Assembly (NCBI GenBank): GCA_016213895.1
Contig: JACQZJ010000123.1
Coordinates: forward strand, 1-46,830
DNA: 46,830 nucleotides
From: Planctomycetota bacterium
GTDB lineage: Bacteria; Planctomycetota; B15-G4; JADJEK01
Direction of reading: 5' to 3'
The position numbers were made by a program, and so were the translations under genes. The notes beneath the pieces were generated by a model that was given only the letters and a program-made list of their open reading frames with translations, did not search any database and was not told the origin of the DNA. This document shows, piece after piece, positions 14,006 through 24,913 of the stretch (position 1 is its first letter; every line of letters begins with the position of its first letter).

Positions 14006-16954
14006 ATGCTGCACATCCTCCTTCTCCCCCTGCTCGCTCTCTTCCCCGGAAACCGCGCCGAGCTCTCTCTCGATGGCGCCTGGGAGATCACCAGCGATGA
14101 TCCAGTCACGCCCCAGGCGGCCTGGCGCCCGATCGAGGTGCCTTCCTCGTTCGAGACGGCGCTTGGCGTGCGCTTCGACGGCGTGGCGACCTATCGGCGC
14201 GCCTTCACCATCCCCGAGGACTTCGCCGGCCAGCGCCTCGTGCTGCACTTCGACGCGATCGCCACCGAGGCGCACGTCTGGCTCAACGACGAGCTGGTCG
14301 GCACGCACCTCGGCGGCTGGACCGCCTTCCGCATGGACGTCACCGCCGCTGCAAGGCGCGGCGCGGAGAACCGCCTCTTGGTGATGGTCGACGAGAAGGT
14401 CGGCCACAACACGCAGGGCTTCCTGCCGATCATCGCCCCGCACTTCGGCGGCATCTGGCAGTCCGTGCACCTGCTCGGCCTCTCCGACCCGTGGATCAAC
14501 GACATTGCGGCCCTGGCCGCGGGCGACGCCGAGAACGGCACGCTGCTGCTCGAGGCGCCGCTCGTGGGCGACGCGACCGGCTGCCGGCTCGAGGCCGAGG
14601 CGACGATCGGCGAGCAGCGCTTCAGCGCGACGCTGGAAGGCGGCCGCCGCGCCCTGCACGTCGAGGGATTCGAGCCGTGGGACGTCGGCCGGCCGAACCT
14701 CTACCCGGTGCTGTTCCGCCTGTTCGACCCCGCGGGCCAGGAGATCGACTCCTTCCAGACCTCGGCCGCCTTCCGCAGCGCGCACACGGACGGGCGGCGC
14801 CTGCTCTTGAACGGCCGGCCGCTCAGCGTGCGCGGCATGCTGGAGTGGGGCTACTACGCGCCGCTCCTCGCTCCCGCCCCGCCCGAGGAGCAGATGCGCC
14901 GCGAGATCGCCGAGTGCCGGGCGCGCGGCTTCAACCTGGTGAAGTTCTGCCTGTGGCTGCCGCCGCGACGCATCCTGCGCCTCTTCGACGAGGCCGGCAT
15001 GCTCGCCTGGCTGGAGTACCCGACCTGGCACCCGAACTTCGACGAGGCGCACCGCGCCGACCTGGTGCGCGAGTTCGAGGAGTTCTACGCCCACGACCGC
15101 AACCACCCGTCCGTGCTGCTGCGCAGCCTGACCTGCGAGACCGGCCCGTCCGCGTCCCTCGAGGTCATCCAGGACCTCTACGACCGCGCGCACGCGCGCG
15201 TGCCCGGCGCCCTGGTCGTGGACGACTCCTCGTGGATCTCGTGGAACCGCGTGTTCGACTTCTACGACGATCACCCCTACGGCAACAACGACACCTGGCC
15301 GGCGGAGCTGGACGCGCTCAACCGCTACATCGACGAGCGCGAACAGAAGCCCCTGATGCTGGGCGAGGCGATCAGCGCCGACACCTGGCCGGACCTGCTG
15401 GCGCTCGCCGAGGCGGCCGCCCTCAGGGAATGGTGGGTCCCCATCCACTTCCGCTCGCAGGCGGCCTGGGAGGCTGCGCTGGCGGCGCGCTCCGGCGGCG
15501 CGACCGCGGCCGCGCTCACCCCCCACTCGCTGCGCTTCGGCCTGAACCAGCGCAAGGACCAGATCGAGGCCTTCCGCCTCATCGTCCCGGACGGAGGCTA
15601 CGTGGTGTCCGTGGCGCGCGACGTGACCGTGGCGAGCATGGGGCTTTCCGACCACCTGAACCGCTGGAAGTGGGCTCCAAGGGACTGGACCTGGCAGGGC
15701 GACACCATGCTGCTGCTCGGGCGCGGCACGCCGCGCTCCTGCGCCTCGGGCGGGACGCTCGAGCTGCCGGTCTTCGCCGCCCATCACGGCTTGGAGCCGA
15801 TCGAGGCCGGCGCGCTGCACTGGACCTGCGGCGGCGCGGACGGCGCGCTGCCGCATCCGGAGCTGGCGCGCGGCACGGTCACGGAAATCGGCACGATCGT
15901 GCTGCGCGCGCCGGAGGTCGAGGCGCCCGCAGGCGTCACGCTGCGCGTCGGGCTCGACGACTGGCGCATCGCCAACGAGTGGACCCTCTGGATCGTGCCC
16001 GGGGCCGCGGGCGAGGAAGACGACGGCGTGATCGTGGCCGAGGCGCTCACGCCCGAGCTGCTCGGAAAGCTCGCGGCCGGGGCGAGGGTCCTGCACCTCG
16101 CCGGCGGCGCGCCCGGCTCCTTCGTGGTGAGGCCGCTCTGGTTCCTGCGCGGCTCGGTCTGGTACCCGCCCCACCCGTTGCTCGAGGTCGCGCCGCCCGA
16201 CTTCTTCACCGACCTCGTGGTCAAGGACCTGCATCCGCCCGGACTCCTGCCCATTCACGTCGTCGCCGGGCAGGTCGACCCGATCGTCCCCTTCTGGGAA
16301 ACGCACGACATCAAGGAGGTGCGCGACTGGGCCATGGTGTTCGAGACCGGCGTGGGCAAGGGACGGCTCCTGGTCTCGGCGCTGCGCCACGAGGGCGCAG
16401 CCGGCCGCTACCTGGTCGCGCTCTTCCGCCGCCACCTCGCCGCAGGCCCCGCGCCGCGAAGCGCCCTCTCGCCCGAGACCGTGGCGGCGATCGGCGATCG
16501 CCTGGTGGCGCGCACCATGGATCTCACCGCCCGCGAGTGGCAGTTCCGGCCCGACGCAGAGGAGGGCGCGGAAGTCCCGTGGGTTCCCCTGCGCGTGGGA
16601 CAGAGCTGGGAGGGACAGGGCTTCGGCGCGCTCGACGGCTGGGCCACCTACTGCCTCGAGGTCGACCTGCCGGCGGACTGGGGCGGGGAGCCGCTCTACC
16701 TCAACTTCGAGGGAGTGGACGACGCGTTCGAGGTGTTCTTCGACGGCGCGAAGAAGGGCGCCGGCGGCGACATCGAGAAGCGACTGACCGCCTTCGACAC
16801 GGCCTCGGCCCACCTGCTCGGCGAGGCGGTGGCGGCCGGAAGCCACGCCATCGAGGTGCGCGTCTTCGACTGGTACGGGGCCGGAGGCATCCACCGCCCG
16901 GTGAGCCTGTCCACGCGGCCGCTCGGGCCCGCGGCCGACTTCATCCAGAGGTAG
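14006..16954 (+). CDS. Secreted glycoside hydrolase family 2-type protein
   Basis: The 982-residue product has a signal peptide and the GH2 order. The N-terminal jelly roll (20-160) carries SLDGAWEI, ATYRRAFTIP and AHVWLNDELVGTHLGGWTAF. An immunoglobulin-like domain follows, then a TIM barrel from about 265 (RLLLNGRPLSVRG, then RGFNLVKFCLWLPPRRILRLFDEAGML). The usual acid/base Asn-Glu is here Cys377-Glu378 (HPSVLLRSLTCETG); Glu454 in PLMLGEAIS is the likely nucleophile. Residues about 870-975 form a second lectin-like sandwich (YLNFEGVDDAFEVFFDG). GH2 enzymes release beta-linked sugars; the substrate is unknown. Its last 14 bases overlap the convergent DUF1848 gene. A GTG two codons upstream is an alternative start. 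Confidence 0.88.
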   Translation: MLHILLLPLLALFPGNRAELSLDGAWEITSDDPVTPQAAWRPIEVPSSFETALGVRFDGVATYRRAFTIPEDFAGQRLVLHFDAIATEAHVWLNDELVGTHLGGWTAFRMDVTAAARRGAENRLLVMVDEKVGHNTQGFLPIIAPHFGGIWQSVHLLGLSDPWINDIAALAAGDAENGTLLLEAPLVGDATGCRLEAEATIGEQRFSATLEGGRRALHVEGFEPWDVGRPNLYPVLFRLFDPAGQEIDSFQTSAAFRSAHTDGRRLLLNGRPLSVRGMLEWGYYAPLLAPAPPEEQMRREIAECRARGFNLVKFCLWLPPRRILRLFDEAGMLAWLEYPTWHPNFDEAHRADLVREFEEFYAHDRNHPSVLLRSLTCETGPSASLEVIQDLYDRAHARVPGALVVDDSSWISWNRVFDFYDDHPYGNNDTWPAELDALNRYIDEREQKPLMLGEAISADTWPDLLALAEAAALREWWVPIHFRSQAAWEAALAARSGGATAAALTPHSLRFGLNQRKDQIEAFRLIVPDGGYVVSVARDVTVASMGLSDHLNRWKWAPRDWTWQGDTMLLLGRGTPRSCASGGTLELPVFAAHHGLEPIEAGALHWTCGGADGALPHPELARGTVTEIGTIVLRAPEVEAPAGVTLRVGLDDWRIANEWTLWIVPGAAGEEDDGVIVAEALTPELLGKLAAGARVLHLAGGAPGSFVVRPLWFLRGSVWYPPHPLLEVAPPDFFTDLVVKDLHPPGLLPIHVVAGQVDPIVPFWETHDIKEVRDWAMVFETGVGKGRLLVSALRHEGAAGRYLVALFRRHLAAGPAPRSALSPETVAAIGDRLVARTMDLTAREWQFRPDAEEGAEVPWVPLRVGQSWEGQGFGALDGWATYCLEVDLPADWGGEPLYLNFEGVDDAFEVFFDGAKKGAGGDIEKRLTAFDTASAHLLGEAVAAGSHAIEVRVFDWYGAGGIHRPVSLSTRPLGPAADFIQR

Positions 16955-17894
16955 GCGCGCGCTCGAAGAGGCACGGCGACTCGGGATCGTGGCGCGCGAA
17001 GTTCTTGCGCGCGCCGCGCTCGTTGCAGCTCCCGTAGCTGTAGCGGCAGCCGAGAATGCACGTCTCGTAGGCGCCGATGTCGACCTCGGCGCTGCAGCCG
17101 CAGTCGCCGCGGCACGGCCTGTTCTTGAGAGGCGGGATGGCGGCGAGCGCTGGATAGACGCGGCGCGCCCAGGCGAAGCTGTTGCACTCGCTCTGCGCCG
17201 CGCCGAGCGCCTCGCGCACCTCCTTGCTGCAACAAAGGGTCAGCGGCACTCCGGCCGCGGCCGCGATGTCACAGAGTTCGCCGGCCAGGTCCACGCGCTC
17301 GGCGAGCGGCGGGTCCGCGACCGCGTCGCCCGTCTCGCGCTCGTACGCCTTTAGGTCCGGCACGACCTGGCGCGGATAGCGGTGGACGAACGAGATCGCC
17401 GCGCGGTCCACGTGCCCGGCGAGCGCGCCCACCAGCCTCCGGAACGTCTCCAGGTGGTGGCGGCGGTCGTAGCGCGCCGAGAGGAACACGGGGTCGTAGC
17501 GCCACTGGATGGCCGCCGGAGGCACGAGGCGCGCCAGGGCGAGCAGCGCCGCCACGGCGCGCTCCAGCCTGGGGGCGTGCGGCTCGACCAGCGTGCCGCC
17601 GAGCCCGGTCACGGTCACGTTCCAGAGCACCGGGTAGCCCGCGGCCAGGATGCGCTCCAGCACCGAGAAGAAGGGCCGCGGCCACTTCGACCAAAAGGTG
17701 AAGTGCGTCACGTCCTCGGGCCGCAGGCTGCAGCGAATGCGGCGCGGCGGCCCGAGCGGCACGTACTCGGCGAAGCCCTCGTCCAGGCGCCGGCCGAACC
17801 AGCGCGGGAAGAGCGCCGGGATGTCGGTGCGGCGGCTGGCGCTCACGCTCCGCGCCGAGGGCTCGAGCCGCTCCGCGCTCCACTTCCCGTCCAT
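16941..17894 (-). CDS. DUF1848 family protein
   Basis: The 317-residue product shows the DUF1848 signature. The N-terminus has SVSASRRTDIPALFPRWF and the VTHFTFWSKWP region. The body contains NVTVTGLGG and IQWRYDPVF, and the C-terminus has a cysteine cluster C261, C265, C267, VDIGAYETC279, C283 and C290. Known members usually end in a C-x3-C-x2-C arrangement reminiscent of an Fe-S site; here residue 286 is Ser (CRYSYGSC), so one ligand is replaced or shifted to Cys290. The biochemical role of the family is not established; an Fe-S or radical chemistry role is inference. The gene follows the SGNH hydrolase gene by 20 bases and probably shares its transcript. Confidence 0.88.
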   Translation of the reverse strand: MDGKWSAERLEPSARSVSASRRTDIPALFPRWFGRRLDEGFAEYVPLGPPRRIRCSLRPEDVTHFTFWSKWPRPFFSVLERILAAGYPVLWNVTVTGLGGTLVEPHAPRLERAVAALLALARLVPPAAIQWRYDPVFLSARYDRRHHLETFRRLVGALAGHVDRAAISFVHRYPRQVVPDLKAYERETGDAVADPPLAERVDLAGELCDIAAAAGVPLTLCCSKEVREALGAAQSECNSFAWARRVYPALAAIPPLKNRPCRGDCGCSAEVDIGAYETCILGCRYSYGSCNERGARKNFARHDPESPCLFERAPTSG

Positions 17895-19678: not shown

Positions 19679-21319
19679 TCAGGAGAGCCGTTTGTGCTGA
19701 TAGAGCACTCCATCGGCGAAGCCGCGGCGCCGGTAGTAGTCGCGCGTGCCCACGGCCGAGATCACCGCCATCGCGCTGCGGCCGCGGCGCAGGGCGAGCT
19801 CCTCCGCGCGCTCGAGCAGACGGCTGCCGAGTCCCTGATGCTGGCTCGTCCCCTCGCGATCGCGCTCGAACCCGGCCACCACGCCGTAGACGTGCACCTC
19901 GCGCACGAGCGCGCTCTCCCCCAGCTCCGCCACGCACGAGGGCTCTTCCGGCAGGAAGAGGCGCAGGAAGCCGACCAGCTCATCCTGCTCGGTCTCGCCC
20001 TGCAGGAAGACCTCGCGGCCGCCCCCTGCCTCGTACTCGACCTCGCGCAGGCGCACGGCCGCGAGATCAGAGAGCGGCCGCCGGATCTGGCGCGCGCGGA
20101 TGTCCCGGCCGCGGCTGCCGCGCCGCCGGAGCTCGGCCTCCACGCGCTCGCGCAAGTTGCCAGCGCGGTTGCCGGCGAGCACGTCGTGCGCCGGGATGTC
20201 GCGCGCGATGCGCGAGATACGGCAGTACTCGGGCGTGGCCGCGGCCATGGCGACGAGCAGGTCGAGCAGCACACCTTCGTCGTAGGGACGCCACTTCCCC
20301 GCGCGATGCAGGGACGCGAGCGCGCTCGAGGCCAGCAGGCAGCACGGGTAGATCTTGATCTCGTCCGGCCGGAAGTCGGGATCGGCGAACATGTGCTCGA
20401 AGTCGAGAAGGTCCTGCCTAGCATCCGAGCCGAGGAGGTTCGGCATCCAGTGCGCCTGGATCTTGAAGCCCGCCGCGCGCAAGAGGAGCGTGGCGCGGCG
20501 CGTGGCCGCCACGTCATGCCCGCGCTCGTTTCGCTCGAGCACCTCGTCGTCCAGGCTCTGGTAGCCGAGCTGCACCTTGGTCGCGCCGAGCCGGCGCAGC
20601 TCCTCGACATCCGCCGCGCAGGCGAGCGCGTCGGGCCGGGTCTCCACGCTCAGGCCCACGGCGCGGCAACGCGCGGTCTCGTTCGCCCGCTGCGCCGCCG
20701 CGAGCTCGGCCAGGTCCGCCTCGTCGCCCGGCGGCGCTGGCGGCTCGTCCTCGCCGCCGTCGAAGGCGTTCAGCGCCTGGAAAGAGCGCGTCACGAACCA
20801 CAAGCGGTAGGCCTGCGGGTAGGAGGTCCAGGTCCCGCCAAGCACGATCAGCTCGACCTTGTCCGTGCGGTGGCCGTTGTTGTCGAGCGCGCGCAGGCGG
20901 TTCCAGACCTGGCGGAAGGGGTCGAAGCCGTAGCGCGCCGCGCGCTGCGCCCCGGGCTCGAGCGAGACGTAGCTCTTGGGCATGAGCTCGTCGTCCGGGC
21001 AGAAGAGGCAGCGGCCGGGGCAAGGGTGGGGACGGGTGAGCAGCGTGACCGGCGCCACGCCGCTCTGCGTGCGGATCGGCTTCATGCGCATGCGCGCCAC
21101 GAACGCGTCCTCGCCCTCGCTCCAGCCCCGGCAATCCGCGAGGCGGCGATAGGCGAGGATGACCTCGCTCTTCGCGAACAGACCGCCGCCGCGCCGATCG
21201 TGCTTGCGGCTGATCCGTTCGTAGGCCCGCTCGTCGCCTTGCGGCGCGACGCGCAGCTCCTCGATCAGAGCCACGAGCCGCTCCTCGTCCTCCCGGAGGT
21301 CGCGAGCGCGTTTCCACAT
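19679..21319 (-). CDS. elp3: Elp3-like tRNA wobble-uridine modification enzyme (radical SAM + GNAT)
   Basis: From the ATG at 21319 the product is 546 residues, the usual length for Elp3; a TTG four codons upstream is possible. The radical SAM part has a [4Fe-4S] motif with three Cys near residues 100-107 (PCPGRCLFC). It continues with family blocks DKVELIVLGGTW, SVETRPD, LGYQSLDDEVLERNERGHDV, AHWMPNL and RPDEIKIYP, then RIARDIPAHDVLAGNRAGNLRE. The C-terminal GNAT lobe carries LVREVHVYG, the acetyl-CoA loop SQHQGLGSRLL and AVISAVGTRDYYRRRGF. Elp3 adds a carboxymethyl group to uridine 34 of tRNA from acetyl-CoA and SAM. The Cys spacing (C-x3-C-x2-C) is shorter than in eukaryotic Elp3. The gene is divergent from a Trm9-like methyltransferase gene only 28 bases away. 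Confidence 0.93.
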   Translation of the reverse strand: MWKRARDLREDEERLVALIEELRVAPQGDERAYERISRKHDRRGGGLFAKSEVILAYRRLADCRGWSEGEDAFVARMRMKPIRTQSGVAPVTLLTRPHPCPGRCLFCPDDELMPKSYVSLEPGAQRAARYGFDPFRQVWNRLRALDNNGHRTDKVELIVLGGTWTSYPQAYRLWFVTRSFQALNAFDGGEDEPPAPPGDEADLAELAAAQRANETARCRAVGLSVETRPDALACAADVEELRRLGATKVQLGYQSLDDEVLERNERGHDVAATRRATLLLRAAGFKIQAHWMPNLLGSDARQDLLDFEHMFADPDFRPDEIKIYPCCLLASSALASLHRAGKWRPYDEGVLLDLLVAMAAATPEYCRISRIARDIPAHDVLAGNRAGNLRERVEAELRRRGSRGRDIRARQIRRPLSDLAAVRLREVEYEAGGGREVFLQGETEQDELVGFLRLFLPEEPSCVAELGESALVREVHVYGVVAGFERDREGTSQHQGLGSRLLERAEELALRRGRSAMAVISAVGTRDYYRRRGFADGVLYQHKRLS

Positions 21320-21347
21320 GGCAGCCGACAACGTAACGTCTCGGGCG

Positions 21348-22115
21348 ATGGACGCGGAGACCCTGCGAGCCCTGAAGCGCGTGAACCAGGAGTTCTACGA
21401 GCGCCACGCGCTCGCCTTCTCCGCGAGCCGGCGCGGGCCGTGGCGCGGCTGGCGCAGGGTGGTCGAGGTCCTCGTGGAGCGCCGCCCTGACCTCGACGCC
21501 CCGCGCGTGCTCGACGCCGGCTGCGGCAACGGCCGCTTCGCCGAGCTGCTCGCCGCGCGCTTCGGGCCCGCGCTCTCCTACCTCGGAGTGGACGCGAGCG
21601 CCGCCTTGCTCGAGGAAGCGGCGCGGCGCAGCCTGCCGCAGGGCACGGCCGCGTTCCTGCGCCTCGACATGCTGGAAGGCGAGGAGCGCCGCGCGCTCGC
21701 GGGCCGGGAGTTCAACCTGATCGCCGCGTTCGGCCTGCTGCACCACGTTCCCGGGCAGGAGACGCGCGCGCAGCTCCTCGCGGCGCTCGCCGGCCTCTTG
21801 GCCCGCCGCGGCCTCTTGGCCCTTTCCTTCTGGGACTTCGCGCGCGCCGAACGCCTGCGGCAGAGGATCGTGCCCTGGAGCCGGCTCGCTGCGCGCGGCG
21901 GTCCGGACCTCGATCCGGCGATGCTCGAGCCGGGCGACCACCTGCTCGCCTTCGGCCGCGGGGAGGAGGCGCTGCGCTACTGCCACGTCGCCTCGCCCAC
22001 GGAGCAGCGCGAGCTCGTCGCCGCCCTGCCGCTCGCGGTGGTCGCCGACTTCCGCGCCGACGGCCGCGAGGGCAGCCTCAACCGCTACGTGGTGGCAGAG
22101 CGCCTGGCGCCCTGA
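21348..22115 (+). CDS. Trm9-like class I SAM methyltransferase (candidate cm5U34 tRNA methyltransferase)
   Basis: The 255-residue product is a Rossmann-fold methyltransferase: motif I VLDAGCGNGRF (54-64), an acidic residue after the second strand (LGVDAS), RLDM, then FNLIAAFGLLHHVP and an LLALSFWDF strand. Before motif I, FSASRRGPWRGW (24-35) matches the FSxTRxxPWP block typical of eukaryotic Trm9/ABH8 methyltransferases, which esterify cm5U34 made by Elongator to mcm5U. The C-terminal ALRYCHVASPTEQRELVAAL also parallels the Trm9 RYYHLYREGEL segment. Residency next to elp3 supports this role, but the function remains inference; no Trm112-like partner is visible in the window. An ATG at 21318 would overlap the elp3 start. 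Confidence 0.8.
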   Translation: MDAETLRALKRVNQEFYERHALAFSASRRGPWRGWRRVVEVLVERRPDLDAPRVLDAGCGNGRFAELLAARFGPALSYLGVDASAALLEEAARRSLPQGTAAFLRLDMLEGEERRALAGREFNLIAAFGLLHHVPGQETRAQLLAALAGLLARRGLLALSFWDFARAERLRQRIVPWSRLAARGGPDLDPAMLEPGDHLLAFGRGEEALRYCHVASPTEQRELVAALPLAVVADFRADGREGSLNRYVVAERLAP

Positions 22116-22192: not shown

Positions 22193-24913
22193 ATGACGCC
22201 CTCCACGCACGCTCGTGACGTCGACGAGCTGCTCCGGCATTCGGACTGGGTCCGGTCGCTGGCGCGGCGGCTGGTGGACGACGACGCGACCCGGGACGAC
22301 CTGGTGCAGGAAACCTGGCTGGCGGCGCTGACGCGGCGGCCCGCGGTCGTCCTTGACTGGAGGAAGTGGCTGGCCGCGGTGCTGCGGAACGTCCTCCTGC
22401 AGCGCCGCCGCTCGAGCGCCCGCCGGCGAGTTCGGGAAGGCCGCGCCGCGGCCCCCGAGGCGTTGCCCGGCGCCGCCGGCCTGGTCGCCGAGGCGGAGCA
22501 GCAGAGGGAGCTGGTGGGAGCCGTGCTCGCGCTCGACGAGCCGTACCGCGGCACGCTGCTCCTGAAGTACTTCGACGACCTCTCCGCCGTGGAGATCGCG
22601 AAGCGCGCCGGCATTCCCACGTCCACCGTCCGGAGCCGCCTGAACCGCGGCCTGGCGCTGCTGCGGGCCCGCTACGACGAGCGCTTCGGCGGCGATCGGC
22701 GGGCGTGGGTCTCGCTGCTGCTGCCGCTGGCGCGACGCGGCGAGGTGGCGGGTTCCCTGTCGCTAAAGGTCCTGGCCGGAGTGCTGCTCATGAACCTGAA
22801 GCTGGCGGTGACGGCGGCCCTGGTCGTGGCGGCCGGCGTCTCAGGTGTGCTGTGGACGATGAACGATCGTCCGACTCGCCCGCACGAGATGCCGGAGTTG
22901 GGGAGCCAGGCCACGCCGCCGGCCGTCGACACGCCGGCCGTCGCCGCGGCGACGGCCGCGCGAGAGAACGAGGCACCGGCGGAGCGGGAGGAGGCCTGGG
23001 CCGAAGTGGCAGCAGCCACGGCGGCCGCGGCCGATGCTTCCGACCGCGTGGGCTACGCCGGCACGGTCATCAAGGCCACCGGCGAGCGTGTCCTGCTGCC
23101 CGGCGTGAAGATCACGGTGGTCGCGAAGGACGCCGAAGGCAGCTACGGCCGGACCGAGCACGTCGTCTACTCGGACGAGCACGGCGCCTTCCACGTTCCC
23201 CAAGAGGTGCCGCGCGACGGCTCCTGCCGGCTCCTCGCCGAGCTGAAGGGATACGTGGCGACGAGCAGGGCGTACCTGAAGGACGTCCTGCCGCTGATCG
23301 CCCTCGAGCGCGGCGCAATGGTCTACGGCCGGGTGCTGAACCGCGACACCGGGAATCCCATTGCCGGGGCTCGCGTCGAACGGGCAGGACCGGAATCGTC
23401 GTGGCTCGAACCAGCGGTCGCCGACGCGTCCGGCGCCTACCGCATCGAGGACGTGCCCTGCGGGACCTTCGAGTTCTCGGTCTCGCCGCCGGGAGGATGT
23501 GCGCTATACGAGCGCATCGAGCTCGGCGGTCCGGGAGAGCACCGCCACGACATCGGGATCGCGGTCGGACCTGTGCTTCGCGTTCGAGCCACCGACCTGG
23601 AGACGGGACTCCCCGTCGCCGGCGCGAGCGTCTTCGCCAATCACCGTCTCGCCGGGAGGACGGACGGAGCCGGAGTGCTCGATCTGTCCATGCCGTCGGA
23701 CCGGGCGATGCACATCGACGTGACTGCCGACGGCTACTGCGGCTGCGGGCGCAGGTTCGACCCGACGGCCATGGACAGGAACGGCGAGGCGCGCTTTCCT
23801 CTGCTGCGCGCCTGCACGCTGGAAGGCATCGTGGTCGATCCGGACGGAAGGCCGGTGAAGGGCGCCACGGTGTCGGTGGAGGGATTCCGCGCGGAGAAGG
23901 CCGTACTGAACGATCCGCGCGTGAAGGCGGTGTTTCCGGACGATGCCGTCATCAGCTTGCTCAGCAGGTCGTTCCCTCGCACCGACCAGGAAGGTCGCTT
24001 CACCCTCGCCGGCCTGTGTCCGTTCGTCGACTACGAGACCATCCAGGTCAGGGAGCGACAGGAGCGGTACTCCACGACCCTGGATCCGATCCGCTTCGAA
24101 CGTTCCGGCGAGACCCGCTCGATCACCGTGCAGTTCCGGATCGCTGCCGTGGTCTACGGCCGGGTGACGTGGAACGGCAAGGGAGTCGGGGCTTCCATCG
24201 ACACCATCGACGACAAGGGCCGGGCGGTGGCCGGCGAGGATGGCCGGTACCTCCTCGAACTGACCAAGTCCGGACCGGTGAAGATCTACGCGCATGCGTC
24301 CGCGATCTACTGTCAGCGGTTGGTGGAGATCGACGTCGCGCCTGACGAGCGGCGACAGCTCGACTTCGCCTTCCAGGGAGAGCTGAGCCGAGTCGAAGGC
24401 AGGCTGGTGGATTCGTCCGGGCGACCCGTGGCGGGTAAGCAGGTGAACCTGAAGTGGGAGGGCGGTCCCGTGGGAATCGGCAACTTCTCGGATCAAGATG
24501 GTCGCTTCTCTGACGAGATCCCCTTGAGCCCCGGTCAGACCTTCACCGTCCTGGTGTCTCACGGGCCCGTGCGTTTGTCCCGCGACGGGCTGGTCGCCGG
24601 CGCGCCTTCCGTCGACATCGTCCTGCCCGACCTGGGGAAGGCGATCCTGAGAATCGTCGAGGAGCCGGCCTGCGCGCTCCTCACCGCAGTGGCGTGCGAC
24701 TGGCGCGCCGCCGGCACGGATGACGAGTACCGGTGGTTGAGCTGCGTCGAGGAGCGAGCTGACCAAACGCTGGCCCTGACCCTGCCGGTCGGCGTAGTGG
24801 ACCTGCGGATCAAGCGTCCTCTCACCGGCAAGCTCCTGGCGAGCGTCGAGGGAGTTCGGGTCTCCCTCGATCCCGAGCCGACCCCAATCGATGTGCGGAT
24901 CGCCGCGAAGTAG
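22193..24913 (+). CDS. ECF-type sigma factor fused to a membrane anchor and carboxypeptidase-regulatory-like domains
   Basis: The 906-residue product has three parts. Residues 10-75 are sigma region 2 (RRLVDDDATRDDLVQETWLAAL, then DWRKWLAAVLRNVL). Residues 105-160 are sigma region 4 with its helix-turn-helix (LSAVEIAKRAGIPTSTVRSRLNRGLALLR). Residues about 197-221 are a hydrophobic segment that should span the membrane. The remaining 680 residues are repeated beta-sandwich modules with GNPIAGARVERA, GLPVAGASVFANHRLAGRTDGAG, GRPVKGATVSVEG and GRPVAGKQVNLK motifs. ECF factors direct RNA polymerase to dedicated promoters; a fused extracytoplasmic sensory or adhesive tail is plausible but unproven. 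No anti-sigma gene is adjacent. The start at 22193 lacks a strong ribosome-binding site. Confidence 0.85.
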   Translation: MTPSTHARDVDELLRHSDWVRSLARRLVDDDATRDDLVQETWLAALTRRPAVVLDWRKWLAAVLRNVLLQRRRSSARRRVREGRAAAPEALPGAAGLVAEAEQQRELVGAVLALDEPYRGTLLLKYFDDLSAVEIAKRAGIPTSTVRSRLNRGLALLRARYDERFGGDRRAWVSLLLPLARRGEVAGSLSLKVLAGVLLMNLKLAVTAALVVAAGVSGVLWTMNDRPTRPHEMPELGSQATPPAVDTPAVAAATAARENEAPAEREEAWAEVAAATAAAADASDRVGYAGTVIKATGERVLLPGVKITVVAKDAEGSYGRTEHVVYSDEHGAFHVPQEVPRDGSCRLLAELKGYVATSRAYLKDVLPLIALERGAMVYGRVLNRDTGNPIAGARVERAGPESSWLEPAVADASGAYRIEDVPCGTFEFSVSPPGGCALYERIELGGPGEHRHDIGIAVGPVLRVRATDLETGLPVAGASVFANHRLAGRTDGAGVLDLSMPSDRAMHIDVTADGYCGCGRRFDPTAMDRNGEARFPLLRACTLEGIVVDPDGRPVKGATVSVEGFRAEKAVLNDPRVKAVFPDDAVISLLSRSFPRTDQEGRFTLAGLCPFVDYETIQVRERQERYSTTLDPIRFERSGETRSITVQFRIAAVVYGRVTWNGKGVGASIDTIDDKGRAVAGEDGRYLLELTKSGPVKIYAHASAIYCQRLVEIDVAPDERRQLDFAFQGELSRVEGRLVDSSGRPVAGKQVNLKWEGGPVGIGNFSDQDGRFSDEIPLSPGQTFTVLVSHGPVRLSRDGLVAGAPSVDIVLPDLGKAILRIVEEPACALLTAVACDWRAAGTDDEYRWLSCVEERADQTLALTLPVGVVDLRIKRPLTGKLLASVEGVRVSLDPEPTPIDVRIAAK

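Follow-up and report, generated by a model that had tools for sequence, protein, structure and literature searches.

A probable bacterial counterpart of the eukaryotic tRNA methyl ester pathway, suggested by an elp3 gene back-to-back with a Trm9-like methyltransferase gene

The window, i.e., the whole stretch of 46,830 nucleotides that was analysed, comes from a metagenome-assembled planctomycete genome, where it is located at G000:C92. It contains an elp3 gene and a gene encoding a class I SAM methyltransferase, which are arranged head-to-head (Table 1). This divergent, back-to-back arrangement had been described in the first-pass annotation and was confirmed, both open reading frames being found at the positions and spacing given in the table. 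The elp3 reading frame extends up to a TTG at 21331 (19679-21331, minus strand), giving 550 aa, and the protein read from the likely ATG begins with MWKRARDL; the start codon is contained, on the minus strand, in the CATG at 21317-21320. For the methyltransferase, an upstream ATG at 21318 would give a protein of 265 aa (21318-22115, plus strand), but the downstream start is preferred because ATG 21318 is not kept in the orthologue of genome G001, which is 80% identical to the window protein and conserves the MD- start. No consensus sigma-70 promoter or terminator was found at the junction. Elsewhere in the window, positions 22196-24913 (plus strand) encode a protein of 905 aa in which an ECF-type sigma factor is fused to several carboxypeptidase-regulatory-like domains, and positions 16941-17894 (minus strand) encode a DUF1848 protein (199.8 bits).

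Table 1. Features of the elp3/methyltransferase locus (window coordinates)
Feature	Position	Strand	Remarks
elp3 (radical SAM + GNAT)	19679..21319	minus	likely ATG start at 21319, stop at 19679
Head-to-head junction	21317..21347	no strand	about 28 bp separate both likely start codons
Trm9-like class I SAM methyltransferase	21348..22115	plus	255 aa from conserved ATG at 21348
FSASRRGPW motif	21417..21443	plus	R28 = Trm9 R29; R invariant in 25/25 family members
HH pair	21741..21746	plus	= Trm9 H115/H116; first H invariant in 25/25
RYCH motif	21975..21986	plus	R210 = Trm9 R241; C212 at the Trm9 Y243 position
N245 in DGREGSLNRY	22080..22082	plus	= Trm9 N271 (DNW); invariant in 25/25

The minus-strand gene is, as initially claimed, a full-length single-subunit Elp3. 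The protein scores 471 bits against TIGR01211, well above the curated cut-off of 350, and carries the rSAM, Radical_SAM_C and GNAT domains of Pfam, the GNAT match being located at the C-terminus. It aligns end to end with the Dehalococcoides enzyme DmcElp3 and the archaeal enzyme MinElp3 (E ~1e-92), and its cysteine cluster CPGRCLFC aligns with CPGKCIYC of DmcElp3. The functional residues K150, K266, Q461 and Y517 of the MinElp3 KAT site (PMC6367351) correspond to K, K, E and Y in the window protein, the glutamate at the Q461 position being shared with DmcElp3. The activity of DmcElp3 is very weak, and direct evidence for cm5U-type nucleosides is absent in Dehalococcoides (PMC7663514).

The methyltransferase was compared with Trm9 (represented throughout by the 5cm2 chain) at the level of motifs, profiles, phylogeny and fold. 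Searches against NCBIfam and Pfam return generic methyltransferase matches, with no NCBIfam model reaching its curated cut-off. The two motifs announced as parallel to those of Trm9 could be located as FSASRRGPW and RYCH; an HH pair and LNRY, the latter starting at 22077, are present as well. These motifs are carried by 24/24 family members tested and by 0/20 control methyltransferases, and are not due to chance. In Trm9, mutation of R29, H115, R241, Y243 or N271 weakens tRNA binding and catalysis (PMC5372719), and Y243 is required for activity in yeast. Four of these five substrate-site residues (R29, H115, R241 and N271) are matched invariantly in 25 family sequences, while the equivalent of Y243 is usually Cys, as in the clade of the window protein; in ACT2, an Elp3-linked bacterial subgroup, two members have Tyr or Phe at this position.

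A profile built from the 25 family members ranks Trm9 first in the PDB (59.8 bits, next match 38.2), with an alignment that extends into the flanks. Trm9 remains first (40.0 versus 31.0 bits) when the four sequences closest to it (ACT2, L110-L113) are removed, and is one among many class I matches when the profile is reduced to the three planctomycete sequences. Used as a single query, Trm9 scores the window's group no higher than the best generic methyltransferases, while ACT2 members reach 63-70 bits, the next match being at 27.8 bits; ACT2, which is also linked to elp3, is by these sequence comparisons clearly Trm9-like. In hhalign comparisons, no proteins other than Trm9 and ACT2 align over the flanks, and the controls, either generic methyltransferases or E. 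coli enzymes (CmoM, CmoA, CmoB, UbiG, BioC and Tam), align mostly over the Rossmann core alone. A kinship with CmoM was considered and rejected on these grounds, the alignment to the E. coli enzyme being restricted to the core and its sequence lacking all flanking motifs (hhalign score of 55 versus 94 for Trm9).

In phylogenetic trees, the window protein, the other planctomycete sequences and the larger Actinomycetota clade form one clade (99/99), and Trm9 forms another with ACT2 (99/96). The junction between the two is unsupported in a first tree and becomes a single clade (86/83) when fewer long branches are included. The methyltransferase does not group with small-molecule or quinone methyltransferases, a placement that the first-pass annotation had named as refuting its proposal, and Trm9 ranks first in profile searches; as for its affiliation with Trm9 itself, the tree gives moderate support, and we thus use the name Trm9-like rather than Trm9 orthologue. 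An AlphaFold2 model computed from the 25-sequence alignment has a pLDDT of 94.4 (a model from only three sequences reached a pLDDT of 62 and was uninformative in fold searches). In a Foldseek search with the better model, Trm9 ranks 26th; the matches span numerous unrelated families and include, at an equal TM-score, the tRNA C32 methyltransferase METTL6. This low rank reflects the generic nature of the class I fold, within which Foldseek does not discriminate.

Elp3 is rare among Planctomycetota, being found in four of the 392 genomes (G000, G001, G009 and G117). Full-length methyltransferase orthologues occur only in G000, G001 and G009, the remaining matches among the 392 genomes being partial (<=49 bits). 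The methyltransferase is thus present in 3/4 Elp3-positive genomes and in 0/388 others (Fisher p 4e-7, with genomes treated as independent and shared ancestry ignored). In all three genomes, which represent two families, the two genes adjoin each other in divergent orientation; this includes G009, at only 43% identity, whose family differs from that of the window but lies within its order. The fourth planctomycete carries an archaeal-type Elp3 (G117:C22:18942-20552, L070; CPHGKCTFCPGG), with neither a Trm9-like methyltransferase nor MnmE or MnmG.

The pair recurs in Actinomycetota, where Elp3 is found in 28/376 genomes. Applied across the genomes, the profile of 25 sequences detects the methyltransferase in 27/28 Elp3-positive and 0/348 Elp3-negative genomes (Fisher p 2e-40, again on counts that treat genomes as independent and ignore shared ancestry). 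At the 28 elp3 loci, an intact methyltransferase gene adjoins elp3 in 24 cases and a fragment in one, and the three others are located at contig ends. In these three genomes, the methyltransferase gene is on a different contig, 47-489 bp away from its end and facing outwards, as fits an assembly break between adjacent genes. The only Elp3-positive genome of this phylum devoid of an intact methyltransferase is G588, where the gene beside elp3 (L134:6533-6727) is, in that frame, a C-terminal fragment resulting from gene decay or a frameshift. Most pairs are divergent; two loci of one lineage (L132 and L135) have both genes on the same strand with the methyltransferase directly after elp3, which suggests that the linkage has survived at least one rearrangement. 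One genome carries a second copy of the Trm9-like gene on a contig other than that of elp3 (G683:C4:255276-256094).

Altogether, the pair is seen in both phyla and falls into two distinct clades, for Elp3 as well as for the methyltransferase. The distances among Elp3 proteins parallel those among the methyltransferases (24 pairs, r 0.91), also when only the larger clade of Actinomycetota is considered (r 0.75, with 0/1000 permutations as high). The first-pass annotation had made recurrent elp3 linkage a check of the pairing, and the outcome is positive, the two genes being linked in both phyla and co-occurring almost perfectly. Outside these genomes, no near relative of the methyltransferase was found in plasmids; a tblastn query with one ACT2 member brought up nothing but methyltransferases of less than 60% identity, and searches of viral contigs with the methyltransferase gave weak partial matches only (24-35% identity). 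A contig scan with a three-sequence query yielded a Nesterenkonia match, which proved spurious, and otherwise only the two known orthologues.

Most bacteria modify C5 of the same wobble uridine by means of MnmE-MnmG, which produce cmnm5U/mnm5U34 through other chemistry and other enzymes. Neither MnmG (0/32) nor MnmE (0/32) was detected in the Elp3-positive genomes tested (4 Planctomycetota and 28 Actinomycetota), while MnmG is present in 13/41 Elp3-negative genomes tested, i.e., 7/30 Actinomycetota and 6/11 genomes of the window's order (Fisher p 3e-4). The 2-thiolase MnmA is found in 31/32 Elp3-positive genomes. On gene content, Elp3 occupies the place normally held by MnmE/MnmG in Elp3-positive genomes, and, with MnmA kept, split-box tRNAs are predicted to carry mcm5s2U34 as the final product. 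Five other genomes of families f1 and f3, some of which are incomplete assemblies, lack MnmG, MnmE and Elp3 altogether (G002, G003, G005, G007 and G011).

Eukaryotic Trm9 acts together with Trm112. A Trm112-like zinc-knuckle gene is found in G000 and G001, and a partial match only in G009. Among the 28 Elp3-positive Actinomycetota, no full-length, strong Trm112p domain (PF03966) was found; a full Trm112p domain occurs in about half of the Elp3-negative Actinomycetota tested. Since the Elp3-positive Actinomycetota show only short or weak Trm112p matches, their methyltransferases probably work without Trm112.

The reactions catalysed by Elp3 and Trm9 are known from archaea and eukaryotes. By analogy, bacterial Elp3 would use SAM radical chemistry and acetyl-CoA to carboxymethylate U34 at C5, giving cm5U34. 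The methyltransferase would then esterify the carboxylate of cm5U34 with SAM, as yeast Trm9 does, to give mcm5U34 (5-methoxycarbonylmethyluridine), and MnmA would add the 2-thio group in the tRNAs for Lys, Glu and Gln to yield mcm5s2U34. This route would replace that of MnmE/MnmG. We consider it quite probable that the two genes form such a two-enzyme wobble-uridine pathway in place of MnmE/MnmG, in which Elp3 makes cm5U34 and the methyltransferase converts it into mcm5U34. This estimate takes into account the replacement of Y243 by Cys, the 86/83 join of the tree, the single-query scores of Trm9, its Foldseek rank and the weak activity of DmcElp3; also, to our knowledge, no product has been demonstrated for any bacterial Elp3.

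The proposed pathway resembles that of eukaryotes, in which Elongator is followed by Trm9-Trm112 or ALKBH8-TRMT112, in that Elp3 is combined with a methyltransferase bearing the FSxTRxxPW, HH and RYxH motifs and a C-terminal Asn. The bacterial pair differs by its single-subunit Elp3, its bacterial host, the Cys found in place of Y243, its adjoining genes and, in Elp3-positive Actinomycetota, the lack of a detectable full-length Trm112. Judged from published descriptions, it is also similar to the archaeal systems of Haloferax volcanii and Sulfolobus solfataricus, where a single-subunit Elp3 coexists with a Trm9 homologue and the genes are clustered in at least one archaeon. Indeed, clustering of elp3 and Trm9 has been noted in S. 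solfataricus and mcm5U-type pathways have been proposed for Haloferax (PMC2584109 and PMC5372719, neither of which reports a counterpart in bacteria), mcm5U34 being documented in H. volcanii (PMC7663514). No methyltransferase was seen among the annotated neighbours of the elp3 gene of a Natrinema plasmid. Within bacteria, the CmoA/CmoB/CmoM system (mcmo5U34) offers a further parallel, since it also ends with a wobble-uridine methyl ester formed by a class I methyltransferase, CmoM.

It is rather unlikely that the methyltransferase works after Elp3 towards an end product other than mcm5U, the ester being, for instance, an intermediate to the amide ncm5U, or the methylated nucleoside being some other Elp3 derivative, further modified or different. 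The strict co-occurrence of the two genes demonstrates a shared pathway only, the Cys at the Y243 position suggests that the pocket may differ from that of Trm9, and an extra step has been proposed for the synthesis of mcm5U in yeast (PMC3110198). However, R29, H115, R241 and N271, which orient cm5U34 in Trm9, are all kept, and no further gene was seen recurring beside the pair in the neighbourhoods, which were viewed unsystematically.

It appears highly improbable that the methyltransferase acts on another tRNA site or another component of translation and owes its linkage with elp3 to a common role in translation. Class I methyltransferases are versatile, as illustrated by the unrelated families and METTL6 that Foldseek returns at an equal TM-score, yet an enzyme devoted to an Elp3-independent site would not disappear with Elp3, as it does in the 348 Elp3-negative Actinomycetota, and the motifs in the flanks match those of Trm9. 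Finally, the view that an unrelated small-molecule or quinone methyltransferase lies beside elp3 by chance, to which the generic NCBIfam/Pfam matches would lend themselves, is refuted by the co-occurrence in Actinomycetota (27/28 versus 0/348) and the adjacency at elp3 loci, together with the recurrence across both phyla and both types of Elp3, the re-arranged orientation and the mirrored trees.

Searches of the open-licence literature retrieved no description of an Elp3-Trm9 pair or of mcm5U from bacteria. According to one review, cm5U and mcm5U belong to archaea and to eukaryotes, not to bacteria (PMC7694415), and bacterial homologues of Trm112-dependent methyltransferases could not be detected in another study (PMC5372719). 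The distribution of the pair and its similarity to known systems point to a eukaryote-like tRNA methyl ester pathway in bacteria. It seems fairly likely that mcm5(s2)U34 of the eukaryotic type is used for decoding in two or more bacterial phyla, where it would be made by single-subunit Elp3 and a Trm9-like enzyme, Trm112-free in Actinomycetota, in replacement of MnmE/MnmG. The association of Elp3 with a Trm9-like enzyme in genomes devoid of MnmE/MnmG provides a concrete predicted product for bacterial Elp3, and such pairs would be simple two-gene systems in which to study the Elongator reaction. If this is true, two mutually exclusive pathways would solve one and the same decoding problem within bacteria.
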